Shown: positions 1,466 to 6,631 of the stretch, piece after piece | Layout: each line of letters opens with the position of its first letter | Numbering within the stretch: position 1 is the stretch's first letter | Source: Dehalococcoidia bacterium | GTDB lineage: Bacteria; Chloroflexota; Dehalococcoidia; UBA1151; UBA1328 | Assembly: GCA_030745955.1 (NCBI GenBank) | Contig: JASLNQ010000123.1 | Coordinates: 1 to 6,631 of the forward strand | Reading direction: 5' to 3' | DNA: 6,631 bases | The notes under the pieces: model-generated | What the model saw: the letters and a program-made list of their open reading frames with translations, nothing else | The model's database searches: none | Told to the model about the DNA's origin: nothing | Position numbers and translations under genes: made by a program

Positions 1466-1630
1466 GTGGGGGCGCAGGTGACGTGAGTGAGGTCGTGCCT
1501 TGGGTGCGGTTCCGACTGCCGGAGTGTGGCTTCTCAGCCGCCTGTGCTCAGTGTTTCGATCACCTACACTCGATTTCCTATCGCCTATACATGATTTCCC
1601 GACCGGAGCGGAGGGACCCGGGGTGGGGTC

Positions 1631-1657
1631 GCGCGGAGCGAATTGAGCGCTCCGCGC
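1631..1657. repeat. Nested perfect hairpin inside the long inverted repeat
   Basis: GCGCGGAGCG (1631-1640) pairs perfectly with CGCTCCGCGC (1648-1657) around a 7-nt AATTGAG loop. The left half overlaps the last 3 bases of the left long arm, so the small hairpin and the long stem would compete slightly at that edge. No T-run follows closely on either strand, so a classical intrinsic terminator is not supported. Confidence 0.8.
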
Positions 1658-1720
1658 TGGTGCGGAATCTCGGGCAAACTCGGGTACCTTTTCGCCTGCT
1701 ATCGAGCCTGTTCTTTTTGA

Positions 1721-1750
1721 GGTCCGTCCACTCTGGTGAGAAAATCGGGT
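1721..1750. repeat. Diverged direct copy of arm sequence inside the element
   Basis: Bases 1721-1750 match 1800-1829, most of which is the right arm, at 24 of 30 positions in the same orientation, offset by 79 bp. Both copies end in AAATCGGGT. The sequence is therefore also an imperfect inverted copy of the left arm. This suggests the element grew by repeated duplication of a palindromic unit, rather than being one simple stem-loop. Confidence 0.65.
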
Positions 1751-1848
1751 GCTGGCGGGGGACGTGTTTGCCGTTTGAGGGCGACGCGATCCCACCCCGG
1801 GTCCCTCCGCTCCGGTCGGGAAATCGGGTATTTGCGGTCGGGAACTCA

Positions 1849-2838
1849 CTAGTCGAAGGTCAGGCCGATTTTCACGGCTCCATCTACGCGCTCAGAGGCG
1901 ATTTCGAATGCCCGGCTGATTTCTGAAATGCCGATGCGATGCGAGATGATCGGCTCAACGTTTAACTCACCTGAACTGATCAGGTTGACGGCCTCGGTGT
2001 AGCTCGTCAGCCCCGGTTCGTCCTGGGAGCCGAGGACGGTGAAAACGTCGGCACGGCTCTTGAACATCTGGGAGTAATCGAACGGCACCGGGTCCTCGGA
2101 CTCCGGCAAGCCGAACAGCACGACACGTCCTTCGTTGCGGACGAGATGGAACGCCTGCGAGAGAGTCGACGTCGATCCCACCGCCTCGATTACAAGATCG
2201 GCCCCGGCACCGCCGGTCAGGTCCATCAGCGCCTGCGTGGCGGCCTCGCCGGTGCCAGCGATCGTCTCGTCGACCCCGTACTGCAGGCCGAGTTCCCGCC
2301 GCCACGACAGCGGCTCGATCGAGATGATCTTTTCGGCACCGAGCCGGGCCAGGATTAAGTCCCAGAAAAGCCCCGCACTGCCTTGCCCGACCACCAGGCA
2401 TGTCTGTCCGTCGAGTGACCGGGGGAGGCGCTTCGCTGCGAAAACGACCGTACCCAGCTGTTGGGCGAGCGTCACCGTATCGATGTCGACACCGGGGTCC
2501 AGCTTCAGGACGTGGGCATCGTCGACAACCTGGTAATCGGCGAAGCACCGCGAGTTCCAGATGTGGGGGACTGTCAACACGAGTTCGCCTTCGGAAAAAT
2601 GCTCCGAGCGGGACTCGATCACCTCGCCGACGGCCTCGTGGCCCGGATGACCGCTCATCGCCGGAAAAGCGGGTATCGCCCATCCGGTGTTCACCATGTG
2701 GAGGTCGGAACCGCAGATCGAAGCAGCCCGCGTCCGCACCAACACGTCGCCCGGTCCGGGCCGTGGGACCTCAACTTCGTCGCAGCGAACTACTCCGCGT
2801 TCAACGGCAACAGCGGCACGCATGGTGCGAGAAATCAC
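1849..2838 (-). CDS. Zinc-type medium-chain alcohol/polyol dehydrogenase (MDR family)
   Basis: This 329-residue protein is an NAD(P)-dependent medium-chain dehydrogenase. The N-terminal GroES-like domain shows CGSDLH with catalytic zinc ligand C42 and GHPGHEAVGEV with H67 and E68. The Rossmann domain shows VVGQGSAG (149-156) and an acidic residue at the end of the second strand (E175 in SIEP), which usually favours NAD. The four-cysteine loop that binds structural zinc is missing: after GELVLTV the chain goes directly to PHIWNSRCF. Likely substrates are a sugar, polyol or sugar acid; which one is unknown. The GTG start at 2838 overlaps the TGA of the upstream nuclease-like gene as GTGA and has GGAG 8 nt before it. 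The ATG at 2823 (MRAAVAVERG) is where many relatives begin but lacks a well-placed Shine-Dalgarno, so it may be the ancestral start. The gene ends just beside the long inverted repeat. Confidence 0.9.
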   Translation of the reverse strand: MISRTMRAAVAVERGVVRCDEVEVPRPGPGDVLVRTRAASICGSDLHMVNTGWAIPAFPAMSGHPGHEAVGEVIESRSEHFSEGELVLTVPHIWNSRCFADYQVVDDAHVLKLDPGVDIDTVTLAQQLGTVVFAAKRLPRSLDGQTCLVVGQGSAGLFWDLILARLGAEKIISIEPLSWRRELGLQYGVDETIAGTGEAATQALMDLTGGAGADLVIEAVGSTSTLSQAFHLVRNEGRVVLFGLPESEDPVPFDYSQMFKSRADVFTVLGSQDEPGLTSYTEAVNLISSGELNVEPIISHRIGISEISRAFEIASERVDGAVKIGLTFD

Positions 2839-3629
2839 CCTTTGGTCTCCAGTAATTGCAGGAATTCGTCTACGACACTAGACGCGTCGTTGAAACACCG
2901 CCCAGAATCAAAAGACTGAACCGTGATGACCCCTCCGAACTCGAGCCATCTGGCTCTTTTCTGTTCTTCGACATTTCGCTCAGGCGGGTGAAATGGTTCT
3001 CCATGTACCTCCAGAACACCCCATTGTCCCTTGTGACAGATGAGGAAATCCGGTTCCAATTTCGTGATCCCGCGAACGGCAGCAGGCAACGGAAAGTAAA
3101 GAACTTTTCTCGACGATAGTTCTCGTGAAACGGCTATTTCACTTTGTGAGCGAAATCGCAGTCCATTCCACGAAAAATTGCCGTGATGTGGTCCGAGCGT
3201 ACCCTGATTCAGCGGCTCGGTATCACCTTTAATCCCCGCTTCGAGCGTTGACCGCCAACCCTCAAACTGTTCCGAGAGTGCGGCGCGAATCTGGATCGAG
3301 AACGCATTAATATGCTCGAATGACGACGATGCAGACTGAATTGCGTCCTTGTAGGCCTGTTCAATGTTGCTGGACCGCTGTTCGGTCAGCATGCCTGTCG
3401 CTGTGTCGAAGTGCTCTGCAGGCACCGAAATGACCAACAAGTAGTCGTAGATGTTGAACTCACCTTCGCCGCCGCTGATCGGGAAAACGACATCCCAAGA
3501 TGGGATCGAAAGTTCCGTCATGGATCGAAGCAAGAACATGGCTTCGAATTCGTGACCTCTCGAGATAAGCAATTCGATTGCAGTCTTGGAGACTCGTTCC
3601 TGCTGTTGTACAGCATCGCTTTCGATCAT
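2835..3629 (-). CDS. PD-(D/E)XK nuclease-like protein (DUF559/Vsr-like C-terminal domain)
   Basis: The protein has 264 residues. The first ~150, largely helical with short strands, match nothing I recognise. The C-terminal half looks like a small endonuclease-fold domain: WNGLRFRSQSEIAVSREL (E164, E170), EPDFLICHKGQWGVLEVHGEPFHPP (D194, E207, H209), then a basic helix with K224 and a final strand-helix. In relatives I recall, the last core motif reads LEVDGEPFH; here the Asp is His209, so activity may be altered. Five sampled 60-base stretches ran from 43 to 57 percent GC, against 65-73 percent in two stretches sampled from the flanking genes, which suggests later acquisition. The ATG at 3629 has GAGG 7 nt upstream. 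The gene starts 47 bp after the GH4 stop with no terminator between, and its stop overlaps the next start, so it is likely co-transcribed with both. No methylase or helicase partner is nearby, so a restriction role is unsupported. Confidence 0.72.
   Translation of the reverse strand: MIESDAVQQQERVSKTAIELLISRGHEFEAMFLLRSMTELSIPSWDVVFPISGGEGEFNIYDYLLVISVPAEHFDTATGMLTEQRSSNIEQAYKDAIQSASSSFEHINAFSIQIRAALSEQFEGWRSTLEAGIKGDTEPLNQGTLGPHHGNFSWNGLRFRSQSEIAVSRELSSRKVLYFPLPAAVRGITKLEPDFLICHKGQWGVLEVHGEPFHPPERNVEEQKRARWLEFGGVITVQSFDSGRCFNDASSVVDEFLQLLETKG
2847..2850 (-). promoter_or_regulatory. Ribosome binding site that favours the GTG start of the dehydrogenase
   Basis: GGAG on the - strand lies inside the last codons of the nuclease-like gene, 8 nt before GTG at 2838. 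It supports translational coupling of the two genes through the 4-bp GTGA overlap, rather than initiation at ATG 2823. Confidence 0.6.
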
Positions 3630-5096: not shown

Positions 5097-6179
5097 CTAC
5101 GTTGCGCCCAGTTCGGCCAGGACCGCTGTTCCGCGCTTGACCGCCCTGGCATCGAAAGTCGCTTTCGCATCGAACATGCCGCCTGCCAGGTTGGCGGTCA
5201 CGAAGACGTTCGAATGCGGGAGTTCGCGCCGGAACCGGCGTGCAAAGCGGTTCGGCTGGGTTTTGTCCGTTGCTACAAAAAAAGCATCGCCAATTCGCAT
5301 TACATGGATGCCGGCCACGTCGTCGTTTCGGACTGCGATCTCGACATTTCGTCGCTGGGTCGTATCGGCCGCGCCGTTGGCGGCCTGCGTCGCGAGCAAG
5401 AGGCCCATCGCCTGCACGTCCTGCGGCTGCCGGTCGGCGTGGGCGGGCTTTTCGTTGCCTTCCCACCAGTCGAACGGGCGGATGTCATGCGAAGGCGCCC
5501 CGGCGAAGAGCGATAGACCGCCACCGTTCTGTTCCAGCGCCCATGCGGCATAGCCGGGGTAGTCGGCGGTCCACCGGGTGGTCGGCCCGGTGATCGTTGC
5601 GGGGCAGGCGAAGTTGACGAGACGTGCGATGCCGCTGCCATCGGCACGGTTGATCGCGAGTACGAACAACGCCGGGTTGCCGGGGCGGCCCGGGCCATCG
5701 GTGAACGTCGACACATCGGGCAGCAGCACACCGGTCGATCCCATCGACGCCGGTTCCAGTGCGCCGATGGCGACTCTCACGGCCCCTGCGACGTGCTCAG
5801 GTAGATAGGCGGTGTAGTTGGCGTACTGCGGCTCCTCCCTCCACAGGGGCGGCGCAGTCCCGTTACCGGTGACGATAAGCCAGACCGAATTCGTTTCTAC
5901 ACCGGCAGCGCCACTGGCGGCTGTCTTGATCGAGTCGGAGAGTGCACCTGACATTCCCCAGAGATCGAGGCTGACGAGAACGGCCCGCGTACCGGCCGAT
6001 TCGAGGACGATCACCCGGGCCAACAGGTCATCGGTCACACCCGTGGATTCGCGGGGGCCGTGCTCGGGTCCGTCGATTACACAACCTACCGGGGGTGTGA
6101 TCACGGCCCGGCCGGTCCCTGCCCTGAACAGACCCGGAGCGGTCTTGCCGGCCATTTCCAGAACCATTCGCAATCCCAT
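5097..6179 (-). CDS. Neutral/alkaline ceramidase-like protein, probably catalytically inactive
   Basis: The 360 residues follow the N-terminal domain of neutral/alkaline ceramidases, a fold also seen in many bacterial proteins of unknown substrate: FRAGTGRAVITPPVGC (18-33), GVTDDLLARVIVLE (47-60), AVLVSLDLWGMS (66-77), NFAC...ADYPGYA (189-211), GGLSLFAGAPSHDI (220-233). The metal motifs are degenerate. The expected T/S-H-T-H-S reads TGNGT (104-108), the expected ACHP reads ACPA (191-194), the expected GEP reads KTQP (306-309), and the late tyrosine motif after LA-G (331-334) reads FDA. So zinc hydrolase activity is unlikely; a binding or structural role is possible. No signal peptide is evident. 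The start is uncertain: ATG 6179 has a weak GAAG upstream, ATG 6167 has GGGA at a usable distance, and the frame runs open to 6365 without family similarity. The gene precedes GH4 and diverges from the SMP-30 gene. Confidence 0.7.
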   Translation of the reverse strand: MGLRMVLEMAGKTAPGLFRAGTGRAVITPPVGCVIDGPEHGPRESTGVTDDLLARVIVLESAGTRAVLVSLDLWGMSGALSDSIKTAASGAAGVETNSVWLIVTGNGTAPPLWREEPQYANYTAYLPEHVAGAVRVAIGALEPASMGSTGVLLPDVSTFTDGPGRPGNPALFVLAINRADGSGIARLVNFACPATITGPTTRWTADYPGYAAWALEQNGGGLSLFAGAPSHDIRPFDWWEGNEKPAHADRQPQDVQAMGLLLATQAANGAADTTQRRNVEIAVRNDDVAGIHVMRIGDAFFVATDKTQPNRFARRFRRELPHSNVFVTANLAGGMFDAKATFDARAVKRGTAVLAELGAT

Positions 6180-6222
6180 CTTTTGCTTCAGTTGGGTCAA
6201 AAACCGATTTGTGTTGATTTCC

Positions 6223-6237
6223 ACTAACGATCTTAGT
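6223..6237. promoter_or_regulatory. Operator-like inverted repeat in the divergent intergenic region
   Basis: ACTAA-5 nt-TTAGT is a short symmetric site in the 210-bp gap between the divergent ceramidase-like and SMP-30 genes, in its most AT-rich part and 44 bp from the ceramidase-like start. On the - strand a TAAGAT sequence overlapping it resembles a -10 box. It could be the binding site of a dimeric regulator serving the divergent pair. The regulator is not in the window. Confidence 0.3.
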
Positions 6238-6389
6238 CGCCAGGACGACCCGGTTGAGTGCGAATCTCGCCTGCGGGTGATACGCTCCGCACCATTCTCG
6301 TACGTGGCTTTGCCCGATGTCGGCCCAAAACCTACTCTGGCCCGTTGCCGGAGGGTGTTGGGCATCGTGAACCCAGGAGTCGGTAACCC

Positions 6390-6631
6390 ATGACAGGTCC
6401 AGACCAGTTCGAAATATTCGATGATGATTTCCGGCAGATGCTCGGTCCCAGTCCGGGCCTGACGTTGCTGGCCGATGGCCTCACGTTTGCCGAGGGTGTC
6501 TGCTGGGTGCCCGGCCGGGAGATGGTCATCGTCAGCGATATCCCGAACAACCGCATAGTGAGATGGGAGGAGGGGCCGGAAGGTCCGTCGGTGAGCACAT
6601 TTCGGACGCCGAGCGGACGCTCAAACGGTCT
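6390..6631 (+). CDS. SMP-30/gluconolactonase family protein, N-terminal part
   Basis: The frame opens at ATG 6390 and runs off the window after 80 codons. AGGAG at 6375-6379 lies 10 nt upstream. The visible residues carry the start of the SMP-30/gluconolactonase beta-propeller: LTFAEGVCWVPG with E35 as the expected divalent-metal ligand, IVSDIPNNRIVRW (47-59), and the RSNG (77-80) that precedes the next metal-binding part. Family members open sugar lactones such as gluconolactone using a metal ion; members that lack a signal peptide, as here, act in the cytoplasm. The gene is divergent from the ceramidase-like/GH4 gene set. A lactonase next to a dehydrogenase, a glycosidase and an acid-sugar dehydratase is what an oxidative sugar pathway needs. 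The family call is good despite truncation; the lactone is unknown. Confidence 0.85.
   Translation, partial: MTGPDQFEIFDDDFRQMLGPSPGLTLLADGLTFAEGVCWVPGREMVIVSDIPNNRIVRWEEGPEGPSVSTFRTPSGRSNG

Follow-up and report, generated by a model that had tools for sequence, protein, structure and literature searches.

Here, we show that GIY-YIG nuclease genes are specifically associated with CGTC-type palindromes in four phyla. The long inverted repeat between two convergent genes in the 6,631-nt stretch of Dehalococcoidia DNA analysed here (the window, meaning the whole stretch) is best read as a divergent REP pair of CGTC type that is non-autonomous; we infer that an Slx1-like GIY-YIG nuclease probably mobilises it. 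The link to a GIY-YIG nuclease gene is not visible from the window alone; nuclease-bearing relatives with the same ends suggest a mover for a REP class that had none. The features of the window on which this reading is built are as follows.

614 to 1465, + strand: creatininase-family gene, left neighbour (PF02633, 214.6 bits).
1463 to 1851, no strand: insertion site including both stop codons, with 383 nt separating them (gene ends).
1574 to 1592, + strand: the left arm continued outward, imperfectly; at G001:C69, a similar sequence borders the left arm of the GIY-YIG element on its outer side (992-1033, 90%, query 18-59).
1593 to 1620, + strand: repeat unit A, 28 nt, GATTTCCC...GGGACCCG, head (GATT) outward, its core recurring at dispersed sites in the genomes G001 and G002 (inverted-repeat search, comparison).
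1604 to 1634, + strand: inner left arm, the end of unit A plus the extension GGGTGGGGTCGCG; 31 bp with 87% and 84% identity to the two arms of GIY-YIG element L085.
1631 to 1657, no strand: inner 10-bp hairpin in the spacer (predicted fold; coordinates read by eye).
1719 to 1746, - strand: decayed third copy of the unit, 21/28 (shuffle comparison).
1785 to 1797, - strand: inward extension on the right side, differing from the left at one position (arm comparison).
1798 to 1825, - strand: repeat unit B, inverted copy of unit A, head outward (inverted-repeat search).
1826 to 1844, - strand: the right arm continued outward, imperfectly, to a point 4 nt short of the dehydrogenase stop codon (inverted-repeat search).
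1849 to 2838, - strand: zinc-dependent dehydrogenase gene, right neighbour, convergent (PF00107/PF08240).

Recomputation agreed with the sequence-only reading, which had described 41-bp arms matching at 40 of 41 positions around 151 nt, the sole difference giving a G-U pair in + strand RNA. The arms lie at 1593-1633 and 1785-1825, and the difference is G at 1628 against A on the reverse strand. The imperfect outer arms that it traced to about 1575 and 1844 extend to 1574 and 1844 (60 nt, 87% complementary), its inner hairpin is present in the predicted fold, and the Pfam matches confirm its placement of the repeat between convergent creatininase and dehydrogenase genes. The 23-mer core TTTCCCGACCGGAGCGGAGGGAC occurs twice in the window, and two or more matches with at most 3 mismatches were found in 0/200 dinucleotide shuffles (mean 0.00), so the inverted repeat is not due to chance. 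The decayed third copy, which the sequence-only reading had not mentioned and which was also detected as a direct repeat, exceeds the best value among 200 mononucleotide shuffles (19/28). The two units are extragenic, start with TGAT and CGAT, and have 205 nt between their starts. As DNA, a solo unit can fold into a hairpin whose 4 + 3 bp stem is split by an internal loop of 2 and 1 nt and closed by a loop of 3 nt; it is no more stable than shuffles of the unit (z -0.74; 46/200 shuffles as good). We detected neither GIY-YIG similarity nor a GIY-YIG remnant in the window element and its spacer, which is why we call the element non-autonomous; a 20-mer from the arm had 0 occurrences in viral contigs.

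Elsewhere in the window, a 264-aa protein is encoded at 2835-3629 (-), between the dehydrogenase and glycosyl hydrolase family 4 genes, and has no significant Pfam and no NCBIfam match; the idea that it is a DUF559-like nuclease was dropped, as PF04480 gave no match up to E = 1. Reading frames at 5097-6365 (-; 422 aa) and 6390-6629 (+; 80 aa, cut by the window end) are likewise without Pfam or NCBIfam matches.

The window arm is a dispersed repeat. Its 23-mer core is found exactly in five stretches of two MAGs of the species-level collection, G001 (JADFLG01, Chloroflexi bacterium B50T3L14) and G002 (CAJWWK01, uncultured Dehalococcoidia). At E <= 0.01, the separate sites matched by a 301-bp query, counted by hand, numbered about 23 in G001 (where 40 of 56 candidates were scored) and about 13 in G002, and 5 of 61 family genomes, G001 included, had a match at E <= 0.001. 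Allowing at most 5 mismatches, the 24-nt core occurs at 20 places in 638 kb, chosen by contig number plus four G002:C4 stretches picked for known copies, vs 0 in one mononucleotide shuffle. Judged by eye, the copies are alike over their whole length, head (GATT) to tail, and diverge beyond it. Among 21 distinct copies in the two genomes, partners within 600 bp were arranged heads-outward in 8 cases and inward in 1, and 12 copies were unpaired. In the outward pairs of these genomes other than the nuclease-bearing ones described below, unit starts lie 65-209 nt apart. Sister copies in G001 carry a CGTC head and have the core CCGACCGGAGCGGAGG in common with the window unit, and sister types have parts of the core (GATTTCCCGACCCCTGTGGAGGGATCTC and CGTCATTCCGACCGGAGCGGAGGAATCTC). 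The suggestion made from the sequence alone, that the repeat belongs to a non-autonomous mobile element family whose arm should recur in relatives, is thus supported: in two relatives the copies are dispersed and keep their ends, and others have near-empty sites.

One unit pair in each of these MAGs encloses a single GIY-YIG gene (G001, L003 1007-1468; G002, L047 9587-10045). The G001 protein is a single-domain GIY-YIG protein (PF01541, 50 bits) whose nearest solved structure is 1zg2 (UPF0213, E = 1.2e-4), and the G002 protein is 74% identical to it over residues 32-122 and 63% over 15-122. The two nuclease-bearing elements show 66% identity over 386 nt, one arm included; of their four units, three agree at all 28 nt and the left one of G002 at 24, and their flanks (4 kb and 8 kb compared) have no similarity outside the element. 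Window positions 1604-1634 resemble both arms of the GIY-YIG element L085 (E 0.002 and 0.011), and this inner arm sequence, common to the window pair and the GIY-YIG element ends, suggests a common element. Of the six genomes that have window-type matches, five (G001, G002, G034, G042 and G048) gave GIY-YIG matches at E <= 1e-5, three of the four in G002 containing stop codons; G060, with one match to the element, had none at this threshold. Tyr44, Tyr54, Gly56, Arg64, His68 and Glu101 (G001 frame), which we take to be the catalytic positions of the superfamily, are conserved in 63-66 of 66 proteins. Three arms flanking GIY-YIG genes fold better than the window unit (L175, z -4.25; L097, z -2.35; L112, z -1.95), and the L068 arm stretch, whose boundaries were misplaced, has no hairpin and folds at chance level (z 0.26).

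We also noticed GIY-YIG elements with very long arms containing more than one unit each (L163, L155 and L170; inverted-repeat scores 88.4, 94.6 and 73.7), and, on a Planktothrix plasmid (L169 1-2676), a flanked GIY-YIG gene whose neighbours are a type IIL restriction enzyme gene on one side and the DISARM gene drmA on the other.

The generality of the association was assessed at 69 GIY-YIG loci, namely 30 from the family of G001, 26 from its class and 13 from plasmids (13/33 plasmid records). Family loci were taken as best matches per genome first; the 69 loci are not a random draw and include some near-duplicates or neighbours (L158/L159, L088/L112). The class sample comprised 27 new loci, of which L151, at a contig end, was left out. 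The plasmid loci come from Rhizobiaceae, Sphingomonadaceae, Azospirillum, Aeromonas, Photobacterium, Planktothrix and Spirosoma, adding three phyla to Chloroflexota. When scored by the best inverted repeat between 300-bp flanks, a test blind to head orientation, 24/30 GIY-YIG and 2/2 DUF559 loci lay beyond the 99% level of 400 random positions. Set against 2000 random positions, 23/39 GIY-YIG loci lay beyond the 99.9% level and 46/69 reached or exceeded the maximum (L107 and L144 tie with it). A stricter test, requiring a hairpin with the tag GTC on both sides, heads outward and within 250 bp, was positive at 32/69 GIY-YIG loci (10/30, 15/26 and 7/13, respectively), compared with 2/2000 at random positions and 14/1302 at positions within these loci. 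Inward hairpins were two-sided at 2/69 loci, and some inward hairpin occurred at 19/69 (hand count). By one or both of these tests, 51/69 GIY-YIG loci were positive and 18/69 had neither flank signal, vs 6/2000 random positions, 0/28 dehydrogenase or creatininase genes and 0/14 other plasmid genes. Among 46 arms chosen by inverted repetition, 39 contain GTC, and in 21 of these 39 an exact 5-bp stem follows it directly (shuffle mean 0.8, maximum 4). The first two stem pairs of the 21 arms are A-T in 19/21 and T-A in 18/21, and several stem variants among them retain pairing.

The flanks of other nuclease genes differ from these. DUF559 (PF04480) loci (L114, L115, L182-L210) form a second nuclease-palindrome partnership, with inverted repeats above every control in 27/31, mostly of the type CCCTCTCCC..GGGAGAGGGTTAGGGTGAGGG; two-sided CGTC hairpins occurred at 0/31 of them, and the tail word GGG[AT]GAGGG faced the gene on both sides at 7/31, vs 0/69 GIY-YIG loci. 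At Y1 transposase loci, inverted repeats exceeded the controls in 16/30, some with GTAG heads, and two-sided CGTC hairpins were found at 0/30. The flank patterns at GIY-YIG, Y1 and DUF559 loci therefore indicate that the three nuclease families have different palindromes.

A different enzyme, either a Y1/RAYT transposase or an unrelated recombinase, might move the repeats, with the GIY-YIG gene as a passenger or homing gene entering existing REP pairs; we consider this unlikely, though deserving of weight. Within the available text of the respective surveys, GTAG-class REPs are linked to RAYTs (PMC3733652) and GIY-YIG enzymes include homing endonucleases (PMC1564403). Strains of Sphingobium are also relevant, as the site between fnrL and a response-regulator gene is occupied by unit-GIY-unit in TomTYG46 and TYG73, by one two-headed palindrome in TYG64 and TYG74, and by a different repeat in TYG72, and is a 34-bp gap in TYG65. 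The single palindrome (CGTC..GACG in L176 and L178, where L164 and L181 have unit-GIY-unit) could be a homing target; the pattern fits either gene loss by exchange between units or homing into the palindrome. In Sinorhizobium, rearrangement is too extensive for exact junctions to be read. That G060 matches the element and has no GIY-YIG match is likewise compatible with another mover. Against this, the Y1 transposase (PF01797), which alone among transposase families was searched for, was found in 0/7 genomes (the six with window-type matches plus G014), all drafts and possibly incomplete; two-sided CGTC flanks are absent from the 30 Y1 loci; and the inner arm sequence shared by the window pair and the GIY-YIG element ends points to a common element.

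We regard it as rather likely that the window feature is a non-autonomous mobile element of two outward 28-nt REP-like units, with the nuclease of full-length relatives cutting the unit and host repair or replication moving it. Under this model, the element would consist of two heads-outward units with a short spacer between them and would have entered the gap separating the stop codons of two convergent genes, and its full-length relatives would carry the same arms around one small Slx1/UPF0213-like GIY-YIG nuclease gene. The nuclease may recognise the unit, perhaps when replication leaves it extruded or single-stranded in the form of an imperfect hairpin, and cut there; host repair or replication would then copy or move the segment between two outward units into new sites. 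Empty pairs like that of the window may have been moved in trans or may be deletion relics. Because Slx1-lineage enzymes are described as structure-selective in the available text of PMC9071465 and PMC1564403, and because the residues above are conserved, we infer that the nuclease cuts at the unit and that host repair is the next step; its recognition and movement of the unit are part of this proposed mechanism.

We are evenly divided over a broader proposition, in which single-domain Slx1-like GIY-YIG nucleases propagate the CGTC-type REPs, one of the two large classes of bacterial palindromic repeats and one to which no enzyme has so far been assigned. Mobile elements of this class would rely on a structure-specific nuclease where others have a transposase, a parallel DUF559 class would use a third palindrome family, and the window element would be an empty member. 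If true, many small 'GIY-YIG nuclease family' genes would thereby have a function, and it would suggest that nuclease-palindrome partnerships (Y1/GTAG, GIY-YIG/CGTC, DUF559/third type) arose more than once. What moves CGTC REPs was left open by the 2013 survey, as far as its available text goes (PMC3733652), and the link between palindromes and a tiny nuclease gene in four phyla brings this question within reach of an experiment with a single protein and a single oligonucleotide.

CGTC-tagged REPs include Neisseria dRS3 and Rickettsia RPE-4 and RPE-6 (Di Nocera et al. 2013, PMC3733652). In the available portion of that survey, they are defined by the tag CGTC (or TGTC, CCTC), a stem of 8-9 bp beginning with A-T, T-A and a loop of 4-5, and they are multicopy, dispersed and extragenic, with HH pairs, which we take as the outward arrangement, predominant among pairs. 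The repeats described here are alike in being short palindromic units, multicopy and dispersed in G001 and G002, and often paired, with outward pairs predominating; the window pair lies between convergent genes. They differ in that the window heads are TGAT and CGAT rather than CGTC, whereas sister units in G001 have CGTC; in that the window stem is 7 bp, interrupted by mismatches and closed by a 3-nt loop; and in that comparable repeats flank a GIY-YIG gene in our analysis. As the window subfamily departs from the survey in both tag and stem, we name it a divergent CGTC-like REP pair rather than a member of the CGTC-tagged REPs.

MITEs are short, gene-less elements with terminal inverted repeats, and the window element, which is short, non-coding and bounded by such repeats, resembles them; the copies in G001 and G002 that combine the same unit with a GIY-YIG gene would be its candidate autonomous partner. 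The enclosed gene product resembles Slx1/UPF0213 GIY-YIG proteins in its matches to 1zg2 and PF01541. The window pair encloses no intact GIY-YIG gene. REPINs and RAYT REPtrons (PMC3733652; see also PMC3116915) are similar in that pairs of hairpin units act as non-autonomous elements and full copies hold a nuclease gene between units; unlike the elements here, with GIY-YIG and another repeat family, they combine Y1/HUH with GTAG REPs, and Y1 was found in 0/7 of the related draft genomes searched.

A 2006 survey states that a DNA-repair role had been predicted for prokaryotic homologues of Slx1, asks whether further GIY-YIG members might be molecular parasites and, in its available text, does not mention flanking repeats (PMC1564403). 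The term GIY has 0 occurrences in the main text of PMC3733652 and in the available text of RepRanger 2025 (PMC12306157) and PMC6006769, and the parts at hand of PMC10928387 and PMC7017083 make no link to repeats. Among the matches listed from titles and abstract starts of the open-licence literature, none linked GIY-YIG or DUF559 with REPs or inverted repeats, which leaves absence from print unproven, and a search with the repeat letters listed no paper on such repeats by title. Within the searches made of these partial sources, the element type (REP pair, MITE-like) is already known and the GIY-YIG nuclease partnership was not found in print. To our knowledge, no activity of GIY-YIG nucleases on these repeats has been measured.

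The history of the site was followed at 20 loci fetched around gene matches (L116-L135), of which 10 have both the creatininase and dehydrogenase genes in convergent arrangement. Their gaps, measured between the last aligned codons, are 11 (L120), 22 (L117), 34 (L129), 73, 94, 171, 172, 202, 224 and 239 nt, compared with 386 in the window, and the short ones are too diverged from the window gap for exact ends or a target-site duplication to be read. Among 76 family genomes, the window dehydrogenase gene is closest to those of G001 and G002 (79 and 77% DNA identity), so the window probably belongs to their group. By eye, the gap of L126 holds another outward pair of related type, that of L125 a TGTCATTGCGAG.. 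pair, and those of L118, L119 and L123 one unit each of the palindrome type flanking DUF559 genes in L114/L115. Near-empty and differently filled gaps in relatives thus indicate that the window repeat pair is an insertion, and the variety of repeat types, with none in some relatives, suggests that the gap took up different elements repeatedly. With at least three repeat types across these five loci (by eye), the gap appears to be a hot spot for small repeats.

The sequence-only reading had also offered a shared terminator or mRNA 3'-end stabiliser, and a bidirectional element of this kind, selected at the gene pair, would suit both the position between convergent stop codons and the strong fold on each strand (z = -10.0 on +, -8.3 on -; 0/100 shuffles as good on either). 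We find it improbable as a conserved role, since gaps of 11-34 nt in three of ten syntenic relatives are too short for it, some others hold different elements, and the arm sequence recurs at many other sites; the one weak terminator-like site within 1400-1900 (1669-1684) is at chance level (1 vs shuffle mean 0.6). An incidental effect on transcripts is possible. The same + strand fold would also be expected of a structured non-coding RNA, which we judge very improbable, as Rfam gave no match at the gathering threshold, nor up to E = 1 for 1460-1860, and matches to the window query in G001 and G002 fall in the arms and near flanks, those to the spacer being limited to two exact 15-17 bp matches and one of 25 bp at 88%, all E >= 0.18. 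Finally, although the window site is known from a single assembly, a fold-back artefact of assembly or amplification is scarcely credible, as the two arms diverge beyond the 41 bp, the spacer is not palindromic, and the 28-nt unit occurs in inverted pairs in two other MAGs.
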